A stretch of DNA of 44,612 nucleotides, taken from a virus. The number at the start of each line of letters is the position of its first letter. The first letter of the stretch is position 1. Below the pieces are notes generated by a model. It saw only the letters and a program-made list of their open reading frames with translations, had not been told where the DNA came from and made no database searches. Positions 6,892 through 43,005 of the stretch are shown in pieces. Location of the stretch: IMG/VR virus record IMGVR_UViG_3300025679_000002, positions 1 to 44,612 of that record. One strand, given 5' to 3'. Position numbers and translations under genes: made by a program.

Positions 6892-7047
6892 TCACTGCTT
6901 AGTCGTCCTGGCTTCTAAGTAGTAGGAGGAGAGGATAGACCTAATCACTGCGCTTAAAGGTTTGCTCGATTTGACTGAATCTTCTTTCAATCGTTCCAAT
7001 AACTCAGGTTTGATGCGTACGTGGATGAGTTCAGATCGTGTGGCCAT
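6892..7047 (-). CDS. Ribbon-helix-helix regulator (Arc/CopG-like)
   Basis: This gene of 51 residues begins MATRSELIHVRIKPELLERL. Residues about 6-12 form the DNA-contacting beta-strand (LIHVRI), followed by helix A (PELLERLKEDSV) and helix B (PLSAVIRSILSSYYLEA), the standard layout of a dimeric ribbon-helix-helix repressor. There is no ribosome site: a TAATGT -10-like box lies seven bases before the ATG and GTGACA lies 18 bases above it, so the mRNA is probably leaderless, which is common in actinobacteria. Three TTGTCACACA boxes overlap this promoter, pointing to autoregulation. Confidence 0.8.
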   Translation of the reverse strand: MATRSELIHVRIKPELLERLKEDSVKSSKPLSAVIRSILSSYYLEARTTKQ

Positions 7048-7086
7048 TGTCACACATTAGGCGTTTGTCACACAGATTGTCACACA
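7047..7086. promoter_or_regulatory. Three direct repeats TTGTCACACA (operator-like) over a promoter
   Basis: Identical 10-mers start at 7047, 7065 and 7077 (steps of 18 and 12 bases). They cover the putative -35/-10 of the ribbon-helix-helix gene (GTGACA, 18-base spacer, TAATGT read leftward) and its start codon. The most natural ligand is that regulator. They are one base longer than, and differ from, the actinobacterial DnaA box TTGTCCACA. Confidence 0.7.
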
Positions 7087-7469
7087 TGATGAGTTAGTGA
7101 TAATGAGACTCAATCTCATTTAGGCAGACTTTCGCTACATTCCGTGATTATCACGATACATTGGCTATCATTCGCTGTCATTCGCTCTCGATCACGTTGA
7201 TAACGCTCTCAGCTTTACGTAATCACTATTATCGGCGTTACTCATGTACACATCACACCTGATGAGCAAGCATATCTATGTGTAGTGATGAGAGAATGAT
7301 GTTCAGAGCATGGTCATGGTGCGAGGTCGTGTGAGTTGTGGGAATCGGCTGTGTGTACAAGTTGCGAACCGGGTATGTGCCCAGACGGGTAGGGAAATGT
7401 AGTAACTATGTCACTTACGTACAAAGCCCAATAAGTTATCCTGTCGTAGACCTAAGAATGGAGTCCACC
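7087..7469. promoter_or_regulatory. AT-richer divergent control region with palindromes
   Basis: This 383-base stretch without a convincing gene separates leftward and rightward genes. It holds AATGAGA-CTCAA-TCTCATT (7102-7120), the near-continuous palindrome CGTGATTATCACG (7143-7155), a tandem TCATTCGCT (about 7168-7187) and CATCAC/GTGATG arms around 7250-7290. Its composition is clearly poorer in GC than the rest. It could hold regulator sites or an origin; no consensus DnaA box was found. Confidence 0.5.
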
Positions 7470-7619
7470 ATGCCCGAGTCAGTCTTTACCCTTCACGACG
7501 GAGCGAACCTTTTGGGTATCCACGCCACTAAGGAAAGCGCCGAGACGTGGTCTCGCGAGGCTACGCCGCCCTATCCAGATGCCACCGTTACCGAATGGTG
7601 CGTCGAGGACTTCGCCTAA
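7470..7619 (+). CDS. Small hypothetical protein
   Basis: ATG 7470 has GGAG six bases upstream, better than the longer in-frame GTG 7338. It encodes 49 residues: MPESVFTLHDGANLLGIHA, then a helix and an acidic end. It resembles small single-domain phage proteins but no family was recognised. It is the only rightward gene in the control region and is closed by a hairpin at 7630-7651. Confidence 0.55.
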   Translation: MPESVFTLHDGANLLGIHATKESAETWSREATPPYPDATVTEWCVEDFA

Positions 7620-7629
7620 CACGAAGAAG

Positions 7630-7651
7630 CCGGAGAACTATGCCTCCGGCC
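7630..7651 (+). terminator. Hairpin after the 7470 gene
   Basis: A perfect 7-bp stem GCCGGAG/CTCCGGC with loop AACTATGC starts 11 bases after the stop codon. There is no T tract, as is often the case for actinobacterial terminators. Confidence 0.5.
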
Positions 7652-7683
7652 CTACCTCCGCATCGCACACCCCGGCTAAGAGG

Positions 7684-7735
7684 CGCCAACTTGTCAACCC
7701 TGAAGACCGCACGTGATCAGTCTTTGGGGTTGGCG
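7684..7735. terminator. Long hairpin between convergent small genes
   Basis: Two alternative pairings exist: CGCCAAC (7684-7690) with GTTGGCG (7729-7735), or CAACCC-TG-AAGAC (7695-7707) with GTCTT-TG-GGGTTG (7720-7732). The hairpin lies just after the end of a tiny leftward gene and downstream of a rightward one, so a bidirectional terminator fits; a switch between the two folds is possible. Confidence 0.45.
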
Positions 7736-7737
7736 TT

Positions 7738-7803
7738 CTAATGCCTTATGAGAAAGACCACTCCACAGATACCGACGATGACGAGGACGACGATTAAAAG
7801 CAT
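7738..7803 (-). CDS. Tiny single-pass membrane protein
   Basis: The start ATG (7803-7801) has GAAGGGAG five bases upstream. It encodes 21 residues, MLLIVVLVIVGICGVVFLIRH, one transmembrane helix followed by a basic end. Such short membrane peptides are common in phages and actinobacteria. It points away from the terminase gene and ends at the long hairpin. Confidence 0.5.
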   Translation of the reverse strand: MLLIVVLVIVGICGVVFLIRH

Positions 7804-7878
7804 GGGACTCCCTTCGAGAGTTATCTCGCGCTTGGGTCCGCCACGCTGTTTTCAGTGTACCTGATAATCTCGTACTAA

Positions 7879-7894
7879 TGTTTCACGTGAAACC
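7879..7894. promoter_or_regulatory. Chromosomal-type parS site (ParB-binding)
   Basis: TGTTTCACGTGAAACC matches the bacterial parS consensus TGTTTCACGTGAAACA at 15 of 16 positions and contains the full 14-bp palindrome GTTTCACGTGAAAC used by actinobacterial ParB. It ends directly at the terminase ATG, where a ribosome site would normally be. No ParA or ParB gene was recognised in the phage, so the ligand would be host ParB. A GATAAT box lies at 7863-7868, just upstream. Confidence 0.75.
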
Positions 7895-9811
7895 ATGGTC
7901 ATAAGCTCCCAGCAGTGGCTCCTCTACGAAGAGTCTCGCGCCAGGGGATTGAACCAGGCGAAAGCCGCCAGAGCCGCGGCGATAGGGATTTCCTCAGCGA
8001 AGCGGCATGATTCTCGCGCTCCCGAGGGTACAAAGTACCGTGAGATTGCCAGATTAGCCAGGAATCAGCCGGACCCGATGCGGCCCGCTCAACTTGGTCC
8101 TGAGGCGAAGAAAGCTTTGAAGGACTTCAACTACTTCCAGAAGCGATACCTAGGCCGGATTGGACTCCCCTGGCAGCAGGACGCGGCGAAGCAGATCGTC
8201 AAATTGCTCCATTCCGAAGACAAGGAGTACGTGGTCATCAACGCCCCCCCGGGAAGTGGTAAATCATCCTTCTTCACCTACGCCCTGCCTCTCTGGTTGA
8301 CGTGTCAGGACAGGGCCATTCGAGGATTAGTAGGTTCGGCAACCGCCAGACTTGCCTCTCAGTACACGGCGAACATCCGTCGAGCTTTGGAATCCACCCT
8401 CCCGATTCTGGCGGATGAGGAGGATTTAGCCAAAGGAATAGCCGTTGACGCCGAGGCCACCCTCTCTGAGGATTTCGGACGCTTCAAGCCCGTCGATCAC
8501 GAGAGTTGGACCAAGGACGCCTTCATCGTCCAGCAGTTCGACGGTGCCTCGATTACCTCAAAAGAACCGACCTGGACCGCCGTCGGGAGGGACCAGGAAT
8601 TCATCGGGGGACGGTACGACTTCTGTATCTGGGACGACCTCGTTACTTCTAACAGACTTAGGTCTTTGGAAACCGTCGAGAAGGACCGGGACTGGTGGGA
8701 CACCTACGCGGAACGACGGTTAGAGCCTGGGGGGTTGCTGATACTCCAGGGTCAAAGAATGGGCGCCAACGATCTGTACAGGTACTGCCTGGACATGGAA
8801 GTAGTCGATATCGAGGAAGACGCCCAGGACGATTTAGAGGGCGTTTCGATGAGGGAGAGTGAAGATGGGTCCAAGAGGAAGTACCACAGCATCATCTACC
8901 GCAGCCACTACGACGAGTTCTGTAAAGGGAAAGACACCCATAAGTTGTCCGCCGACCCTTGGCCCAAGGGCTGCCTTTTGTCTCCAAGAAGGGTTAGCTG
9001 GCGCGAAGTGTCGTCTATGCAGCACCGTCGCCCGGACACCTACGCCCAGGTCTACCAGCAGTTAGACGTTTCCAACGACACGGTTCTCGTGGACCCAGCC
9101 TGGATAAGCGGTTCGGGTAATTTCGTCGGCTGCTGGGACATGGAGAGGGATAGGCTGGAGATTCCCCAAGGGCTCGCTCCTCCCACGTATTCGATAGTCT
9201 CCGTTGACCCCTCTCCCACCAGGTACTGGGCTATCGAGTGGTGGCTGTACAACGAACCCTCGGACCAGTGGTTCCTCATTGATTTACTTAGGTCAGGCTT
9301 GGACGCGCCGGATTTCCTGGACTGGAACCAGAACGAAGCGCAGTACTACGGGGTGATGGAGGACTGGCAGCAGATGAGCTACAAACTGGGTGCTCCGATA
9401 ACCCACTGGATAGTGGAACGTAACGGCGCGCAGAGGTTTCTTCTTCAGTACGACCACGTCCGCAAGTGGCAAGCGAAGAACTCCGTTCAGATAATCCCCC
9501 ACGACACCTACCGCAACAAGGTCGATGACGAGTTCGGGGTGCAGATGATCGCTCCGGCGTTCAAGTTCGGTCGCGTCCGCCTTCCTGGGAAGTCAGCGCG
9601 TAACGCGAAGGTCCAGCCGATGGGCCGGATGCTCGCGATGAAACTGGTGGATGAGGTGACGCGGTTCTCGACCACCTCATCCTCTAAAGGTACGACCGAC
9701 GACTGCGTGATGGCGATGTGGTTCGCGCTCTTTCAGATGCAGTATTTAGCCATCCCATCAAGTACAATCAGGCCTAGCCGCAGACCGTCGTGGTTAGGAA
9801 GGGCGTCGTGA
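7895..9811 (+). CDS. terL: Terminase large subunit
   Basis: This is the ATPase and nuclease that packages DNA into the procapsid. It has 638 residues. Residues 5-45 form a small helix-turn-helix-like segment (GLNQAKAARAAAIGISSAK). Walker A is APPGSGKS (117-124), Walker B is FCIWDD (243-248), and the C-terminal RNase-H-like nuclease has SVDPSP (435-440) and TDDCVMAMW (601-609) with the metal-binding aspartates. No small subunit lies next to it; HTH proteins at 38246 or 41438 are candidates. ATG 7895 has no ribosome site and abuts a parS palindrome. Confidence 0.92.
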   Translation: MVISSQQWLLYEESRARGLNQAKAARAAAIGISSAKRHDSRAPEGTKYREIARLARNQPDPMRPAQLGPEAKKALKDFNYFQKRYLGRIGLPWQQDAAKQIVKLLHSEDKEYVVINAPPGSGKSSFFTYALPLWLTCQDRAIRGLVGSATARLASQYTANIRRALESTLPILADEEDLAKGIAVDAEATLSEDFGRFKPVDHESWTKDAFIVQQFDGASITSKEPTWTAVGRDQEFIGGRYDFCIWDDLVTSNRLRSLETVEKDRDWWDTYAERRLEPGGLLILQGQRMGANDLYRYCLDMEVVDIEEDAQDDLEGVSMRESEDGSKRKYHSIIYRSHYDEFCKGKDTHKLSADPWPKGCLLSPRRVSWREVSSMQHRRPDTYAQVYQQLDVSNDTVLVDPAWISGSGNFVGCWDMERDRLEIPQGLAPPTYSIVSVDPSPTRYWAIEWWLYNEPSDQWFLIDLLRSGLDAPDFLDWNQNEAQYYGVMEDWQQMSYKLGAPITHWIVERNGAQRFLLQYDHVRKWQAKNSVQIIPHDTYRNKVDDEFGVQMIAPAFKFGRVRLPGKSARNAKVQPMGRMLAMKLVDEVTRFSTTSSSKGTTDDCVMAMWFALFQMQYLAIPSSTIRPSRRPSWLGRAS

Positions 9812-11679
9812 CGACCTCTATCGAATCCATCGAGCAGTTCTATCGACAACGACAGGCTGAACGCGGACCCTTGCTGATGCGCTGGGCGGAAGTAGCGCGT
9901 CACGTTGACGGGGATATCACCGTCCCGCTCTCTGAACTGGATAAAGACGAGAAGTCGATGGCCGTCAATCTGATGGGGCCTGGGTTAGACCAATTAGCGA
10001 TGCGAATCGCCTCGACGATGCCCGACATCTCAGTCGATGCTCTACGACCAGGATTCAAGGAATCGGAGAACAGGGCCGACACCAAGCGCAAGGCGATGCT
10101 CTCGTGGTGGGACATGAACCGCATGGATATGATTATGCGCCGGCGAGCTCGGTATCTCCTTGGGTACGCAGCAAGCCCAGTCTCCATCTCCTTCATGGCG
10201 ATGAACCCGCTCGACAAGCGAGAGATGCCCCACTGGCGAGTCTTGAACCCGATGTGCGTCTTTCCCGCTCCGACGACGGACCCCAACGACATCGAGCCGC
10301 CGAACTCCATCCACTCGACGCTGCAGACGTTGTCCTGGCTGCAAGCGACCTACCCAGTGCAAACGTCGGTTCTGTACAAGGGGAAGGCCAATCCCTCTAC
10401 GAAATTTGAAATCCTTGAGTACAACGACGACGAGGAAACCGTCTTACTCGCGTTAGGAGCGGTGAAGGAATCCGACGAAGGTCCTCACTGGATGGCCGCG
10501 AGCACCGTCGCGAACGGGACGCAGAGTTGCGTGGAACTCGCGAGAGTGGTGAACCGCGCCGGGATCCCGTTGACGGTGTATCCCGGCAGGATAACGCTCT
10601 CCAAACTACAGGGGATGTTCGACCAACTCATGCCCGTGTATCACAACGCCTCGAAACTCGCGGCCTTGGAATACATCGCCATCAAGCAAAGTATCTTCCC
10701 CGAGCAGTGGTTGGTCAGCCACCCCAACTCGCCTGGTCAGGCGCAGATAATTAACGCGGCGGACGGGTTAACCGGCGTCATCGGAGAAATCAGGAATGGG
10801 CAACTTCAGCAAACTCAAACCCAGCCATCTGTACAAGCGGCTCAGATGCAGGACCGACTGGAGCGCGTTGGAAGACTCGCTGGAGGACTACCTGCTGAAC
10901 TGGGTGGTGAATCCGCCACGAACATCCGCACCGCACGAAGGGGCGAAGCAGTCCTTGGCGCAGCGATTGACATGCCGGTACAAGAGCATCAAGAGATTTT
11001 TGAAGACAGCCTTGAAGCGGAGAACCGGCGAGCGATAGCGGTCTCTAAAGGACACTGGGGACCGAAGCAGTTCTCGTTCTACATCCCTCGCAACGGGAAG
11101 ATGACCTCAAAAGACTACGTCCCGAACGACGTATTCGAGAACGATCAGAACGTCGTCAAGTACGGAATGACTGGAACGGACGCGAACTCCTTCGTCATCG
11201 CGATGGGACAACGTCTTCAGATGGAAACCATCTCCCAAGAGACCTTCATGGAGATGGACCCAGTTGTTGAGGACGTGCAGGAAGAACTCGCACGCATCAA
11301 CATCGGCGGCGCACGCAGGGCGATGATGAGTTCAGTCGAGAACGGCGCAAGCCAAGGCCAGATTGACCCGACGTTCATCGCTCGCTTCGCCCAAGCCTTA
11401 CAGGACGGCAAGACGAACCCAGAAGATGCCCTGGTCAAGGTACATAAAGAGATGCAGGCCGAACAAGCCGCGCAGCAACCCCCTCCGGGGGCAGCCGCTC
11501 CCCAGCCTGGGCAGATGCCTGGGATGACTGGCGCCCCCGGAGTCCAGGGCGGTGTGCCGATGCCGCCACAGGGCCAAGGGGCACTAGCGAAGATACTCGG
11601 GAACCTTAGGCAACCCGCGGCACAAGGACCAAGTGAGCAGGCTGGGAATGCGCCGCCTCCTAACGCGATGGCACAGTAG
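9808..11679 (+). CDS. Portal protein
   Basis: The start is GTG 9808, overlapping the terminase stop and preceded by AGGAAGGG; GTG 9790 is less likely. It encodes about 623 residues. Its position directly after terL, its size, the helical N-terminus (SIEQFYRQRQAERGPLLMRW), the central strand-rich wing and the long Gln/Ala-rich C-terminal barrel-like helix (QALQDGKTNPEDALVKVHKE) fit a portal, the dodecameric ring through which DNA passes. The last 80 residues are Pro/Gly/Gln-rich and probably disordered inside the head. Confidence 0.78.
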   Translation: MTTSIESIEQFYRQRQAERGPLLMRWAEVARHVDGDITVPLSELDKDEKSMAVNLMGPGLDQLAMRIASTMPDISVDALRPGFKESENRADTKRKAMLSWWDMNRMDMIMRRRARYLLGYAASPVSISFMAMNPLDKREMPHWRVLNPMCVFPAPTTDPNDIEPPNSIHSTLQTLSWLQATYPVQTSVLYKGKANPSTKFEILEYNDDEETVLLALGAVKESDEGPHWMAASTVANGTQSCVELARVVNRAGIPLTVYPGRITLSKLQGMFDQLMPVYHNASKLAALEYIAIKQSIFPEQWLVSHPNSPGQAQIINAADGLTGVIGEIRNGQLQQTQTQPSVQAAQMQDRLERVGRLAGGLPAELGGESATNIRTARRGEAVLGAAIDMPVQEHQEIFEDSLEAENRRAIAVSKGHWGPKQFSFYIPRNGKMTSKDYVPNDVFENDQNVVKYGMTGTDANSFVIAMGQRLQMETISQETFMEMDPVVEDVQEELARINIGGARRAMMSSVENGASQGQIDPTFIARFAQALQDGKTNPEDALVKVHKEMQAEQAAQQPPPGAAAPQPGQMPGMTGAPGVQGGVPMPPQGQGALAKILGNLRQPAAQGPSEQAGNAPPPNAMAQ

Positions 11680-12140
11680 TGCCACACGCACGCTCTTCTC
11701 CTCGCGGAAAGTTACAACCGAACCGCGCTGACTTAACGCGCCCTGCCGTCCAGACCGTCCCCGGTCAAGGTTACGGTGAAGCGGCAGCACAACGATCCGC
11801 GATGCAAGCAATCCCGCTTCCAACGCCACAAGTCCCCGGTGGGGGTGCGCCCACGTCGCCCCCCACCGGCCCTCCCTCCGCGCTCGCAGGCGCTCCGATG
11901 GTTGGTTCTAACGGTCCACTCACCAGACCTACCGAGCGACCGAACGAACCAGTAACGCACGGACTTCCCGTAGGGCCAGGCGCGGGGCCGGAAGCGTTGC
12001 AAGGTGTCGGTGCGGCGGCGAGAGAGAACGCAGTAGAGCAAGGGACGCTTTCGCACCTCCTCACCTCGTTGGCGTCAGTCCCTAACGCCACGTCAGCAAT
12101 CAAAGACTTGGCCGCGCGCGCGACGCAGGGCGTGATGTGA
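11679..12140 (+). CDS. Pro/Gly-rich head-associated protein
   Basis: GTG 11679 overlaps the portal stop (TAGTG). It encodes 153 residues: an Arg-rich start (MPHARSSPRGKLQ), a central GQGYGEAAAQRSAMQAIPLP that resembles small proteins found after the portal in other actinophages, then about 50 residues of Pro/Gly/Thr and a C-terminal helix. It is probably a minor virion component. The function is unknown. Confidence 0.6.
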   Translation: MPHARSSPRGKLQPNRADLTRPAVQTVPGQGYGEAAAQRSAMQAIPLPTPQVPGGGAPTSPPTGPPSALAGAPMVGSNGPLTRPTERPNEPVTHGLPVGPGAGPEALQGVGAAARENAVEQGTLSHLLTSLASVPNATSAIKDLAARATQGVM

Positions 12141-15100
12141 GCCTTCAATCGACTGACCCCACCGCTCCGCCGCCTACGCCAACCGCGTCGGGCTTTTCAA
12201 CATCTCTCAACACCGTTCTGAACACAGCTCCAGAGTTAGCGAAGTCCCCAGGACTCTCCGTTGGGATAGCACAGGCCGGTGGAGATACGCAAGGCAATTC
12301 ACAAGCAGTAGCGAGAGGGACGAACGCCATCTCCGACACGACCGCGCACGCCTCGGTCGCGGCGGCGGTCGGCGGCGGGAACGTCCTGCAAACTGCTCTC
12401 GACTGGTTCGGCAATCACGTCTCTTCGACGGTCGGTCAGTACGGGTCTGACGTTATCAAGGGTGTGCAGAAGGTCGGTTCGGCGGCGCTCGGCACGCTGA
12501 ACAAGCCAATGCAAATCGTCCAGCACGAGTACAGGTATTTACATGACGTGGAGGCGACGCATGGCCCTATGGCCGCGTTACTGGAAGGAATTGGCATAGC
12601 CGCAGGCGCAGTCGGCGGGACTCTTGCCACCGGGAGTCTCTACGGCGGCGTCTTAGGAGCGGAGGCCGCGACGGGTGTTGAGTCGCAACTCTTCTACAAC
12701 GACTCGTGGAGCCGCACCTCGAAGGCTAGTTACGTCGATCCCAACACCCATCAGCAAGTCTCATTCGGGCGCGACGTGGTGTCGGAACTCTCGCGAGTTG
12801 TCCCAGGCCTGCAACGGCAGTCAACCGGATTCAAAGTAACCTCAGGTCTTCTCGACGGGGTGTTCGACATGAACGTCGGTGGGACGGAACTCCTAGGTCT
12901 TGCTGGGAAGGCCAACTCTGCCGAAGGACTCGGGGGGGTCCTGGGTGATTACTTTCCTGGCAAGGCCCCGCAGACGACGGAACAGTTCGACAGTCTGTTG
13001 AACTCAGTCTCAGGTGGCAACGTTCGCAGGGCCTTTCGCGATATCGCGTCCAAGACATCGGGAGAGATTGCTACCGCCTACCGTCCTCTCGCAAATCAGG
13101 CGGATTTCTTAGGCGCCCTCGGGCGGGCGAACACCGAGGAGGATGTCGCGCAGTTGTTCCGCTCAGCAATCAGGACGCACGAACTCGCCTTCATGGAGAA
13201 ACTGCCGACATTCTCCGTAGGAAGGCTTCCCTTCCAGGCGATGCACGAAGCGATGGGCAACTCTGCCATCCCTGGCGTGCAGAATCTCTTTCGTGCAACC
13301 TCTCGCCTGCCGACCTCGTGGGATGACGTAGAGAAGGTTTGGACCAACAAGCAGTTCGACCCCGCGTCCTCTGCCGACAGCGGGATACTCGGTGTCTATA
13401 GAACTGCGTTGTTCACCGAGAACCAGCACACCGCGGCTTCGCTCTCGCAAGCATTTGCCAACGCGGACGTTCCAGGGAAAATCCGTATCTGGAAGAACCT
13501 CCAGATGTCCACCATGATCAACATGGCTGGGTATCACGGCTTCTCGAAGGATGAATACTTAGCAGCCGCGTTCGACGACCCGACGGTCCGAGCGGAGTGG
13601 GGTCACGCAATCGACGAAGCCGTCGCTCAAGGGATGTTCGGCAAGTCTGCGGTGTATGGATACTCACCCGAAGCGGACATCTCGACGGTGAGAGACACGC
13701 AGACGGGCGCCACACACTCAGCAGCGATAACGAAGAACCAGACAGGAAGTTTCGAGTACCTCGACCTCGCAAAAGTCCGACGGGCGGGGCAGATTCTTGG
13801 CAACCACAAGGCTGCTGCGATGATTGGCGGATTCGGGGACTTCGCGTACGACCACGTAACGGCAGCGGTCTTTAAGCGCTGGGTGCTGATGTCACCGTCC
13901 TACGCCATGCACATCTCTCTCGCGGAGTTAATCCCCAACGCGTTACGTCTCGGCCCGTTCACACTTGTACGGAGTTCCGTCGAAGGGCGCATGGCTGAAC
14001 TCGGAGTGAAAGCAGAGCAGGGCGACATCAACGCCGTCGAAGGTATCGTCTACAAAACGCTTCGTCACATCCCGGGACTGACCATCGACTCGAAGAACGT
14101 CCAGTACGCGACGGACGCGATTCTCAGCAACGACGGGCAGATAGTTCCTCGCGCGTTGAGTTCGGGCCACAACTACGCCGACGAGATTCTTCCGCGAGAT
14201 GAGAAGTCGGTCAGCCTCATCAGACGGGGGATGTTCGATTCAGGCAAGACGGCGCAGAAACTCTCTGACGACTTCGCACTCTACGGGGCTGGGAGTAAGC
14301 AGTACGACGACGCGTGGCAGGCGTCGCTGCACGAAAGTTCTAGGGATGAAGCAAGCCAGATGGCCGCGAAGACAATTCGGGCAGGCGCGGCGCGCGGCGA
14401 AACGCTGGACGAAGCGACGGCTAAGGCGACTCAAGAAGTGGCTGCGTACCTCCGTAGTGAACCCGAGGCCTACAAAGGCTTCTTCCTGCGCTCACTACCG
14501 CACATAACGTCGTTTCCCGCTGGGATTGACCGACCTCCCAACATGGATCAGTTCGACGAGTGGGCGAACGCGATTGTGAAGAAAGTGGTTGGAGAGACGA
14601 AGGGTGTTGACGGGACACTGCATGTCCCGCTTCTAAGCCACGTCGCCAATGGAGAGTTGGTCGATGATGCCGAACTCTCCGCTATCCCCGCACACCAACG
14701 CCCACTCATGGTGAAGGGCCGCGAGGCGGTTCCTTCGGGCGACCCCTCACTTCAACGAATCGCCAACTGGGGCTTTCGTCGAGTCCTGAATCCGATGGTG
14801 AACTTCCTCAGCCGTCAACCGATTTGGATGGCGCAGTACATCAAGGAACGCACGCTGCTACAAGACGCAGTGGACCGTGGGTTCTTGAGTGACGACGAAG
14901 CGAAGGTCGCGGCCAACATCCGCTCAACGCAAAAGGTGATGGACAACGTTCACAACCTGACCGACCGCACACAGTGGACCGTGACCTTCAGGAACTGGGC
15001 GCCGTTCTACTTCGCGCAAGAGCAGGCGTATCGCAGGATGGGACGGTTGTTGGCCGACAACCCCGCCGCCTTTAGGAAGTATCAACTGATGATCACTTCC

Positions 15101-16606
15101 ATGCACGACGTGGGACAGATATTCGGCGGCAAGGATGGACACGGCTACCTCGTAATTCCTGGGACTGGGTTTATGACGGCTGGCGCCGTAAGCGCTGCGG
15201 CGATGCTTGGACTCCCCGTTGACACTGCGACCCCTATCGGCATGGGCTGGAACCTCTCAAGTTCGAGCGTCATCTTCCCTCTCTCAGCAGGCTTTCGTCC
15301 CGACGTTGGGCCTCTGCTTTCCATTCCGGTTTCTGCCGTTGCTCAGTTCTTCCCTGAAACGCTCTCACCTGTTCTCGGTGCTGACCTACAATCGACCGCC
15401 GCGACGCTCCTAGGGCCAACCGCGACCGAGCCCATCTACGAACAGATGGTGCCGAACACGATTCTCCAACGCCTCCTGACGGCGGCGGTTCCTGGCTTCG
15501 CGCAACGCACGTTCAACTCCACGATGATGCAGGTCTTGGCAACGTTGGCGTATGAGAACAAAATCCCACCCGCCGACGCGAACTACCGCCAGATGCAGAA
15601 CTTCATTGACACCGTGCGCTGGCAGACGCGAGCGCTCTACGTGATGAAGGCACTCGTCGGAGCGGTGACGCCTGTCTCGCCCGAGTTGACGAACCCTATC
15701 TACAACCAGTTCTCCGCAGACTTGACGGCAGAAATCAACTCGCACAAATCCATCGCCGCCGGTTTCCAGGCCTTCGCGCAGAAGTACCCCGGCGCGTGGC
15801 CGTTCGCCGTTGCGCAGTCGCAGAACATCACGGGTGCCACCGTTCCTTCCTCAGTCGCTGCGGAGAAGTGGATCAACGAGAACATGGACCTCATCAACAA
15901 ATATCCGAACGCTGGAATCTTGATGATGCCGATGACCGGACTTTCGACGAAGTACAACGCGGCGGTGTACAACGAACAAATCGCCCAAAGCCTCCGAGTG
16001 AAATTGCATCCATCGGAACCGCAGGAGTTCGGCAATATCACCGTTCCGAGCTACATCGACTCGCTCTACATCGGCGCGGGAAACGCGACCTTCTACAAGT
16101 GGTACGGGCAGTACACCGCGCAGATAAAGGGACTGGCGGGAACACAGAAGTACGACGCCGAGCAAGCCTTCTGGGGCAAGGGCACGCCTGGTTCGGGAAC
16201 CATCGGTAAGTACGGCCTGCAAAACCCCGTCTGGTATAACTGGTTCAACTCGAATACGCGAGAGATTCAGCGCGGCGAGACAATCAAGCAGATGACGAAA
16301 CTCTTAGCCGACAACCCGCAACTGAAGACGCCCCTCGCGGAGAACACGCGAGTTCTCTTGAACGGCTATCAGTCCTACGAGAAGCAAATAACCACGTTGA
16401 CTCAAGATGGCGCGTCGAGTTCTTTACAAACTGCCGCGAAGGATACCTGGGACGCTTACCTGCAAAATGTCGCGACAACCGACCCTGAGATGATTAACGT
16501 CATCACGGGGCTGTTCATGTCCATCACCACCCCGACCTCGCAATCCGTCAACGCCACCAACTCACCCGGTGCCTTTACCGCTAAGTCGTGGAGGCCCGCA
16601 GCGTGA
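12137..16606 (+). CDS. Giant virion protein, probably ejected or internal
   Basis: A GTG start at 12137 overlaps the previous stop. The protein has about 1,490 residues, a tenth of the genome. The first 60 residues are Ala/Thr/Pro-rich, a Gly/Ala-rich hydrophobic stretch near 148-170 (MAALLEGIGIAAGAVGGTLA) could be membrane-inserting, the middle is largely helical, and residues about 950-1,010 carry a conserved-looking RNWAPFYFAQEQAYRRM segment. No enzymatic motif is visible. It is too far from tail genes, and before the capsid gene, to be an ordinary tape measure; size and place recall the large internal or ejection proteins of podoviruses such as N4 or T7. That role is inference. Confidence 0.65.
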   Translation: MSLQSTDPTAPPPTPTASGFSTSLNTVLNTAPELAKSPGLSVGIAQAGGDTQGNSQAVARGTNAISDTTAHASVAAAVGGGNVLQTALDWFGNHVSSTVGQYGSDVIKGVQKVGSAALGTLNKPMQIVQHEYRYLHDVEATHGPMAALLEGIGIAAGAVGGTLATGSLYGGVLGAEAATGVESQLFYNDSWSRTSKASYVDPNTHQQVSFGRDVVSELSRVVPGLQRQSTGFKVTSGLLDGVFDMNVGGTELLGLAGKANSAEGLGGVLGDYFPGKAPQTTEQFDSLLNSVSGGNVRRAFRDIASKTSGEIATAYRPLANQADFLGALGRANTEEDVAQLFRSAIRTHELAFMEKLPTFSVGRLPFQAMHEAMGNSAIPGVQNLFRATSRLPTSWDDVEKVWTNKQFDPASSADSGILGVYRTALFTENQHTAASLSQAFANADVPGKIRIWKNLQMSTMINMAGYHGFSKDEYLAAAFDDPTVRAEWGHAIDEAVAQGMFGKSAVYGYSPEADISTVRDTQTGATHSAAITKNQTGSFEYLDLAKVRRAGQILGNHKAAAMIGGFGDFAYDHVTAAVFKRWVLMSPSYAMHISLAELIPNALRLGPFTLVRSSVEGRMAELGVKAEQGDINAVEGIVYKTLRHIPGLTIDSKNVQYATDAILSNDGQIVPRALSSGHNYADEILPRDEKSVSLIRRGMFDSGKTAQKLSDDFALYGAGSKQYDDAWQASLHESSRDEASQMAAKTIRAGAARGETLDEATAKATQEVAAYLRSEPEAYKGFFLRSLPHITSFPAGIDRPPNMDQFDEWANAIVKKVVGETKGVDGTLHVPLLSHVANGELVDDAELSAIPAHQRPLMVKGREAVPSGDPSLQRIANWGFRRVLNPMVNFLSRQPIWMAQYIKERTLLQDAVDRGFLSDDEAKVAANIRSTQKVMDNVHNLTDRTQWTVTFRNWAPFYFAQEQAYRRMGRLLADNPAAFRKYQLMITSMHDVGQIFGGKDGHGYLVIPGTGFMTAGAVSAAAMLGLPVDTATPIGMGWNLSSSSVIFPLSAGFRPDVGPLLSIPVSAVAQFFPETLSPVLGADLQSTAATLLGPTATEPIYEQMVPNTILQRLLTAAVPGFAQRTFNSTMMQVLATLAYENKIPPADANYRQMQNFIDTVRWQTRALYVMKALVGAVTPVSPELTNPIYNQFSADLTAEINSHKSIAAGFQAFAQKYPGAWPFAVAQSQNITGATVPSSVAAEKWINENMDLINKYPNAGILMMPMTGLSTKYNAAVYNEQIAQSLRVKLHPSEPQEFGNITVPSYIDSLYIGAGNATFYKWYGQYTAQIKGLAGTQKYDAEQAFWGKGTPGSGTIGKYGLQNPVWYNWFNSNTREIQRGETIKQMTKLLADNPQLKTPLAENTRVLLNGYQSYEKQITTLTQDGASSSLQTAAKDTWDAYLQNVATTDPEMINVITGLFMSITTPTSQSVNATNSPGAFTAKSWRPAA

Positions 16607-21885: not shown

Positions 21886-22896
21886 ATGGCTTATACCACC
21901 ACAGGAACGGTTGACTACGTTCAGACCAGTTGGGACATGCTCGCGTACTTCGCGCTGCGACCGGAAGAGTACTTCGACCAGGTAGCCGACGTGAAGCCGA
22001 CGAACCAATCCAACCCTGGTTCGAGCGTTGTCTTCAACGTGCAGAACGACATGGCACTCGCTACGACCGCCATCAACGAATCGACCGACATCACGCCGGT
22101 TGCCCTCACTTCAAGTCAGGTCACCTTGACCTTGGCTGAGTACGGCAACGGCACACTGACGACCTCCGCCCTTCGTGGTCAGGCGTTCGTGGACATCGAC
22201 GCGATTCAGGCGAACGTCGTCGGACAGAACGCGGGACGTTCCGTTGACGAGTTGGCGAAAATCCAGCTCCAAGGCGGCTCGAACGTCAGTTACGCGGCTG
22301 GTCCCGGCGTCACCGCAGGTACGGCTGGGCAACCACCCGCCGCACGCAACCAGATCACCCCCTTGGACACGATTCGCGCCTACGACATCCGCTACAACGT
22401 GGCTGCCCTCAAGCGCAATAACGTCCCTGGTTACGGTGGGTACTACCTCACCTTCATCCACCCGGACGTTTCGTTCGACCTCTGGCAGGAGAGTGGCAAC
22501 CAAGCCCTCATCGCCCCGCACGTCTACTCCGCCCCGGACGAAATCTTCCGTGGTGAGGTTGGTTCGTTCGCGGGCGCCAGGTTCATCGAGACCCCGACCG
22601 CCCCGCTGTTCGCGGACGCCGGTTCCTCGACGACCGACACCGACGTGTACGGGACGCTGTTCATCGGACGCCAAGCCCTAGCCAAGGTCTGGTCGATGAA
22701 GGACGGCAACGGTCCACAGCCCGTCATCGTCATGGGTCCGATCACCGACTTCCTTCGCAAGTTCCAGCCCGTCGGTTGGAAGTGGATGGGTGCCTACGGG
22801 GTCTTCCGTTCGCAGAGTGTCTGGCGCTTGGAGAGTGCTTCGTCCATCGGTCAGAACACGACCGCCGGAGTAGACACTCCCGCAGAGGACCTGTAG
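21886..22896 (+). CDS. Major capsid protein (N4-gp56-like)
   Basis: This gene starts at ATG 21886 after AGGAGG and encodes 336 residues. The sequence has the pattern of the N4-gp56 branch of HK97-fold capsid proteins: an N-terminal arm (TTTGTVDYVQTSWDMLAYFALRPE), then TLTLAEYGNGTLTTSALRG and the helix VDELAKIQLQGG, with YLTFIHPDVSFDLWQ near the middle. Its own promoter, strong ribosome site and flanking hairpins fit the most abundant virion protein. Confidence 0.78.
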   Translation: MAYTTTGTVDYVQTSWDMLAYFALRPEEYFDQVADVKPTNQSNPGSSVVFNVQNDMALATTAINESTDITPVALTSSQVTLTLAEYGNGTLTTSALRGQAFVDIDAIQANVVGQNAGRSVDELAKIQLQGGSNVSYAAGPGVTAGTAGQPPAARNQITPLDTIRAYDIRYNVAALKRNNVPGYGGYYLTFIHPDVSFDLWQESGNQALIAPHVYSAPDEIFRGEVGSFAGARFIETPTAPLFADAGSSTTDTDVYGTLFIGRQALAKVWSMKDGNGPQPVIVMGPITDFLRKFQPVGWKWMGAYGVFRSQSVWRLESASSIGQNTTAGVDTPAEDL

Positions 22897-42416: not shown

Positions 42417-43005
42417 TTACATCGACGTTGCAGCACGACTCGTAGAGATGAGGACGAAGTTCCCAGACCTCACGATGCAACAGGTTTCAATGGAGTTCGT
42501 CTCAATCGGACAGAAGGACTTCGTGGTCTACACCGCCGCGGCGTACCGGACACCGGAGGACGTTCGACCTGGAATTGGAACGGCGTGGGAACCCATTCCT
42601 GGCCCTACCAACTTCACAAGGGACTCCGAGGTTCAGAACGCGGAGACGGCGGCCTGGGGCAGGGCGTTAATCGCCATCGGAGCTTCGACCAAGAACGGCA
42701 TCGCGTCGGCGGAGGAAGTCAGCAACCGTTCGGGCGACCAGGAACAACGCCCCGCTCACCAAGCGCCACGCGACAGCACAACGGGCGCCTCCAACGATCC
42801 CCGCATTGACCTCATTCTGCGCGCATCCCAACAGGGGGACAACGACTTCCTCAACTCTCTCGCCACGCAGTTCATGGAGCGCGGAACGTTGACGGAGAAG
42901 CAGATTGAGTCAGGGACGCGGCAGGCGCAGAAAATCGTCACCACGCCGCGTTCGGCACCCCCACGCGAGGACTACCCCTTCGCCGACGAGGAAGAAAGAT
43001 TCTGA
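42391..43005 (+). CDS. Single-strand annealing or binding protein (Erf-like)
   Basis: ATG 42391 follows AAGGGGAAGAAA and overlaps the exonuclease gene. It encodes 204 residues. SEVQNAETAAWGRALIAIGA, then GIASAEEVSN, is the ExxETxAxGRAL pattern of Erf/Sak-type recombination proteins. The region after about 110 is flexible, and the end YPFADEEERF is acidic, like the partner-binding tail of single-strand DNA-binding proteins. It would anneal the strands made by the neighbouring exonuclease. Confidence 0.72.
   Translation: MAEFKRNLDYIDVAARLVEMRTKFPDLTMQQVSMEFVSIGQKDFVVYTAAAYRTPEDVRPGIGTAWEPIPGPTNFTRDSEVQNAETAAWGRALIAIGASTKNGIASAEEVSNRSGDQEQRPAHQAPRDSTTGASNDPRIDLILRASQQGDNDFLNSLATQFMERGTLTEKQIESGTRQAQKIVTTPRSAPPREDYPFADEEERF

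Follow-up and report, generated by a model that had tools for sequence, protein, structure and literature searches.

The window, that is, the whole stretch of 44,612 nucleotides of viral DNA analyzed here, carries a terminase large subunit gene encoding 638 amino acids (terL; positions 7895 to 9811, + strand; phrog_38, E 9e-43). The next late-region gene encodes the portal protein (9790 to 11679, + strand; phrog_104, E 1.3e-10), and the major capsid protein gene lies further downstream (21886 to 22896, + strand; phrog_1357, E 1.1e-66). After the portal region, an ORF of 1489 amino acids without a PHROG match (12137 to 16606) was kept at 44 to 80% in the six other close lineages compared over that region. 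Directly upstream of terL, a single base separates the ATG (7895 to 7897) from the end of a perfect 14-bp palindrome of the parS type, GTTTCACGTGAAAC (7880 to 7893, no strand assigned; exact match, 14/14), and no purine-rich ribosome site was seen before that ATG on inspection by eye. The palindrome is embedded in a 16-bp parS-type context, TGTTTCACGTGAAACC (7879 to 7894, + strand), with the 5' T of the consensus and a 3' C in place of the consensus A; the 16-mer is not palindromic as a whole, perfect symmetry being confined to the 14-bp core. An 8-codon ORF (MFHVKPWS and a stop; 7878 to 7904, + strand) opens at an ATG that extends into the 5' end of the palindrome and runs into the start of terL; it is probably incidental, perhaps related to small hydrophobic ORFs in two relatives, L003 and L004.

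Further upstream, a conserved noncoding block (AACCGGGTATGTGCCCAGACGGGT / AACCGGGTNTGTNCCCAGACGGGT; 7367 to 7390, + strand) was shared with relatives. Its distance upstream of terL is 141 to 664 bp in the window and the 8 relatives, of 10 examined, that have it; at up to 6 substitutions it was matched in the window, L003, L004, L005, L007, L008, L009, L010, and L011. At the same threshold it was absent from L006 and L138, part of it being present in L006 in a separate comparison, and 12 named phages lacked it at up to 7 substitutions over their first 2,600 bases (4,001 for JXY1). The block is mostly followed by a GTAACTAT..CACT-like stretch and is perhaps a late promoter or a cos-type element; in all four carriers that have both, the parS palindrome lies between the block and terL.

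The palindrome occurs once in the window, with no further match even when 2 mismatches were allowed, and an order-1 Markov model predicts 2.5e-4 exact copies per window. The first-pass annotation, made from the letters alone, had placed a host-type parS at the start codon of terL, within the 16-mer at 7879 to 7894 and next to an ATG lacking a ribosome site, and had put its chance occurrence at about 0.0002 per 44 kb; all of this was borne out. According to Table 1 of PMC7022226, the parS of M. smegmatis is GTTTCACGTGAAAC itself and the B. subtilis consensus is TGTTNCACGTGAAACA. A 16-mer quoted for both M. tuberculosis and B. subtilis in PMC2346475, TGTTTCACGTGAAACA, is identical to the window 16-mer at 15 of 16 positions. 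Judged by its letters, the palindrome at 7880 to 7893 is a host-type parS, as first annotated. The S. coelicolor consensus, as given in PMC7022226, has a CCTG center, so that GTTTCACGTGAAAC might not be the preferred form if the host were a Streptomyces. The core hexamer CACGTG was depleted in the window (3 observed versus 17.7 expected, one of the three lying inside parS), perhaps reflecting restriction-site avoidance.

A TerL scan of IMG/VR gave ten related records (L002 to L011; TerL identity 69.5 to 100%), to which a profile scan added L138 (70%), making a close set of 12 records with the window and nine lineages after merging of the window with L002 and of L008 with L009 and L011. The exact 14-mer was present in 6 of the 12 records, corresponding to five of the nine lineages, at 1 bp (window/L002), 561 bp (L003), 64 bp (L004), 1 bp (L010), and 10 bp (L138) upstream of terL. 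For the site as first annotated, the relatives thus gave a mixed answer: exact conservation near terL in five lineages speaks for it, but the 14-mer was absent from the other four, over the whole records of L005, L006, L007, and L008/L009/L011, the last three holding merely about 0.4 to 1.0 kb of sequence before terL. A two-mismatch form of the palindrome was present in L007. The same record has GTGTCACCTGAAAC at 8575 to 8588, 1.4 kb upstream of terL, which differs at one position from the S. coelicolor parS listed in PMC7022226; this near match is probably due to chance. Beyond the close set, no exact 14-mer was found in the stretch searched of L012 (partial TerL match, 39%) or in any of 14 records at 42 to 44% TerL identity, although a two-mismatch form was present in one of the 14.

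On the TerL tree, the carriers were not monophyletic: three changes were needed, two of them forced by well-supported branches, meaning that the site was gained or lost more than once. Clustering of carriers on this tree, in which two distant rows were long-branched, was weak, 45 of 500 shuffles being as low. Within the limits of partial contigs, no window ORF combined matches in at least three of the four remaining carriers with absence from L005, L006, and L007, and several window ORFs were matched in L003 alone or in L003 and L004 alone. The start of terL itself varied among close members: it is apparently ATC in L003 (6984) and ATT in L005 (6498), where the upstream ORF ends 2 and 6 nt before it, respectively, and ATG, GTG, or TTG elsewhere. 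The terL frame of L010 (1950 to 3774) was broken, with 10 stops on read-through and two tblastn pieces, and represents a pseudogene, a sequencing error, or an intervening change.

Several comparisons showed that the 14-mer itself stands out from its surroundings. Among the five carriers, core identity was 100%, whereas the 60 flanking bases (30 on each side, ungapped) averaged 27%, about the chance level. GTTTCACGTGAAAC was the sole 14-mer common to five of the nine upstream regions (up to 700 bp). The DNA available for the nine lineages contained 8 perfect 14-nt palindromes, of which only GTTTCACGTGAAAC was shared, and when all 420 palindromes of the same half-site composition were searched in that DNA, GTTTCACGTGAAAC occurred in 5 lineages, with no occurrence of any of the other 419. 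A set of 200 random exact draws yielded a single nonzero value (5), which can only be the true palindrome drawn by chance, since no other member of the 420 occurs in the nine lineages. At up to 3 mismatches, 17 palindrome matches were counted in the loci scanned (the L007 site being counted twice, in overlapping loci), and 3 of 60 shuffled palindromes gave at least as many; the argument therefore rests on exact sites only. One site in one window would be a rare but possible accident (2.5e-4), yet its recurrence in five lineages with an invariant core between chance-level flanks, set against 0 of 419 control palindromes, leaves coincidence a negligible probability, and it was rejected. This pattern indicates that the palindrome was kept as DNA by selection, albeit with four of the nine lineages lacking it.

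Selection could also have acted on something encoded by these bases, namely, the first codons of a small protein (MFHVK...) or a hairpin in the RNA ahead of terL. The window, L003, L004, and L010 share the context ATGTTTCACGTGAAAC, which opens an ORF for MFHVK (reading ATG-TTT-CAC-GTG-AAA). The ORFs that start from parS in L003 (6407 to 6505; MFHVKRYPDEARLRFFLVGLLIGSVLGLLAIL, 32 amino acids) and L004 (4502 to 4585; MFHVKRSQLFLIGLYIGVVLGLLTFVR, 27 amino acids) encode similar, hydrophobic peptides, and those of L004 and L010 end in ATGA on the terL start. An RNA stem of 5 to 6 bp is possible, and folding in L003 (z −1.78) and L004 (z −2.62) was stronger than in most shuffled sequences. However, the corresponding peptides of the window and L010 reach merely 8 and 6 amino acids, wobble positions within the palindrome are invariant among carriers, and L138 has the exact 14-mer with no ATG, from which it follows that the DNA sequence, and not a peptide, is kept; the coding explanation was rejected on the strength of L138. 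A hairpin was likewise rejected as the general cause, folding being unremarkable in the window (z 0.52), L010 (z −1.06), and L138 (z −0.15). Taken together, a role as peptide start or RNA structure is very improbable.

The absence of phage ParA and ParB, which had also been claimed from the sequence, held in the wider set. ParB_N (PF02195; matched in 11 of 14 known control genomes), the ParA-type domain AAA_31 (PF13614; 14 of 14 controls), and the tyrosine integrase domain (PF00589; 14 of 14 controls) were each found in 0 of 12 family records; several of these records are fragments and the integrase search covered the tyrosine type, so that a divergent ParB or another type of integrase could be missed. 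A partition system of the phage's own, with parA and parB beside an iterated parS, was not found with the two partition profiles in these partly fragmentary records, and the palindrome is single at up to 2 mismatches; this explanation was set aside.

The host is likely an actinobacterium, as suggested by the TerL and capsid relatives and by an Rpf-like transglycosylase domain that scored just below its cut-off (25.5 versus 27 bits). Phage records yielded no close cultured relative: no DNA match was found to positions 6900 to 10500 of the window, and among the matches listed, TerL identity with Streptomyces phages was at most 24% (over 80% of the query), while with Microbacterium phages it reached 28% in shorter alignments; 94 of the 95 TerL-matching phage records came from Microbacterium or Streptomyces phages and one from Weizmannia. 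In tblastn searches with the capsid protein, 29 of 58 records were Streptomyces phages, the best named relatives (about 40% identity), with 13 from Bacillus and 1 from Bacteroides. A single scan of genome contigs with a TerL-alignment pattern revealed no TerL relative. The nearest named phages, nine Streptomyces phage records (eight Beephvirinae and Abafar), contained no parS at up to 2 mismatches.

Host-type parS sites were also found in many phages outside this family. In a collection of 50,697 phage records, a 20-bp parS-type query had matches in 332 at E ≤ 10 (not dereplicated and thus inflated by sister isolates; the 60 best and 60 spread rows were inspected), and some unannotated Listeria records among these may be host DNA. 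Scrambled palindromes, two in number only, matched 0 and 0 records of the same collection. Among the phages with a site are cultured ones of Microbacterium, Arthrobacter, Gordonia, Curtobacterium, Lactobacillus, and Bacillus. ParB_N was absent in all nine exact-site phages chosen from the match list outside Quhwahvirus (SpecialK, Nubia, Woes, LP-048, Lpa804, Bo-Finn, CMP1, OneinaGillian, and RpAliso). The location of the site differed among them: SpecialK has it between the genes for capsid and adaptor, Nubia between those for DNA polymerase I and a purA-like product, and Woes near the right end. Quhwahvirus members (Quhwah, Teamocil, and Ariadne) had the exact site in 3 of 3 records, in frame within a DNA-binding-protein gene (Quhwah 42851 to 42864; L168:6852-6865) and inside a 20-nt run identical in all three, surrounded by a variable linker with many indels; these phages encode a ParB_N protein. 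The phi29 genome, which had no ParB_N match, carries four one-mismatch sites, GTTCCACGTGAAAC, that fit the B. subtilis consensus in PMC7022226.

In IMG/VR, many matches were listed for the bare 14-mer, which says little by itself, and likewise for the 14-mer followed by ATG, versus 0 for one scrambled palindrome; the number carries little weight because bacterial DNA and ParB-encoding phages may be among these contigs. Among the matches listed in the two scans, 49 hand-picked contigs longer than 30 kb contained ParB_N at E ≤ 0.01 in 9 cases and above the family cut-off in 5. The first-pass annotation had considered the use of host ParB by a phage without partition genes unusual. That judgment did not survive the survey of 332 matching records, the nine sampled phages without ParB_N, and the reported precedent of phi29: a host-type parS in a phage without ParB_N is not unusual among phages. 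No report of host-type parS in phage genomes was found in the literature searched, which omits most subscription journals, and the breadth of such sites across phages may be under-reported.

We consider it probable (roughly 0.6) that the palindrome serves as a host-type parS that loads host ParB, whereby phage DNA would be retained or properly placed in cells whose lysis is delayed; binding, spreading, and benefit are all inferred here. Host ParB (Spo0J family, a CTP clamp) would load at the single site on injected or replicating phage DNA and spread along it. Through ParA and SMC, the host would then position, condense, or retain the phage genome as it does an origin-proximal piece of its own chromosome. 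Any benefit would most likely arise under delayed lysis, as in slow growth, a carrier state, hyphae, or spores. A broader reading is tentative, and we hold it at slightly less than even odds: that capture of the host centromere is widespread and has evolved repeatedly in phages without partition genes, that a 14-bp site lets even virulent phages ride the ParB/ParA/SMC machinery, and that in the window's family its placement beside the start of the late operon may couple host chromosome handling with packaging or late expression.

The constant terL neighborhood in the window's family suits a cis-regulatory role at least as well. Host ParB might act as a roadblock at, or spread over, the start of the late operon and so limit or delay terminase until phage copies outnumber ParB, a control of terminase that had also been proposed in the first-pass annotation. 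The site does lie 1 to 561 bp upstream of terL in all five carriers, with a single base between it and the start codon in two of them (window and L010), and control of gidB has been proposed for a putative parS of M. bovis BCG that coincides in part with a −10 element (PMC2346475). The same range of distances weakens the proposal, however, with an ORF of 159 codons between site and terL in L003; in addition, a scan of sigma-70 type found no promoter-like site at 7850 to 7895, and four lineages do without the palindrome. Moreover, the sites of unrelated phages occupy a DNA-binding-protein gene, the capsid/adaptor gap, or the interval from DNA polymerase I to a purA-like gene, from which it follows that terL control is not the general reason for the site. 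We regard terminase control as unlikely, at about one chance in five.

Two further explanations appear improbable. The palindrome might be the operator of another phage or host regulator whose target coincidentally equals parS: a palindrome beside a gene start has the usual shape of an operator, and many of the scanned phage ORFs were without a family match. Such a coincidence fits poorly with an exact match to a known, widespread site in five carriers with zero drift, and with the enrichment of parS-type sites over phages of unrelated hosts. The window contains no second copy at up to 2 mismatches, a frequent companion of autoregulated operators, and none of its ORFs was carrier-specific with matches in at least three other carriers, the latter being a weak test on partial contigs. 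ParB recruits SMC and spreads over kilobases, so one site can gather much protein. The site could on that account divert or titrate host ParB or SMC, disturbing chromosome segregation or guarding phage DNA from defense, all the more as many phage copies are presumably made; against this, one site per genome would be a weak sponge early in infection, and we give diversion just as little credence as a coincidental operator.

If host ParB does load at this site, a phage without partition genes would reach the segregation and condensin machinery of its host through 14 bp. This would help to explain how phages without integrase or ParAB persist in slow-growing, filamentous, or sporulating hosts. 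The idea is directly testable in cultured phages that carry the same site. Scanning genomes for host parS motifs would also be an inexpensive way to spot phage-host DNA handling overlooked by annotation.

Compared with the chromosomal parS of M. smegmatis and B. subtilis, the predicted site of the window has an identical 14-bp core and differs in being carried on a phage genome, with no parAB found alongside. The extrachromosomal prophages RedRock and kin resemble the proposed role in that a centromere-like site keeps the phage DNA; according to PMC7157519, however, RedRock encodes both ParA and ParB, and its parS comprises two loci of eight directly repeated 8-bp motifs rather than the host palindrome. 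Quhwahvirus shares the exact host-type parS with the window, but its site is intragenic and, on the linear map, about 42 to 43 kb away from the start of terL, in a genome that encodes a ParB_N protein. The functional precedent is phi29, which, like the window, has host-type parS sites and no ParB_N match in its genome. Host Spo0J reportedly takes part in trapping the infecting phi29 genome in spores (Meijer et al. 2005, EMBO J 24:3647), and a benefit of host Spo0J to this virulent phage in B. subtilis is said to appear when lysis is delayed. It differs from the window in having four one-mismatch copies over 19 kb versus one exact copy beside terL, and in belonging to another phage family with a host probably of another phylum; any corresponding function in the window's family is putative. 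Use of a host parS-ParB system by a phage without its own ParB is of a kind already reported for phi29. What is new here is a phage family with one exact copy of parS at the start of its late operon.
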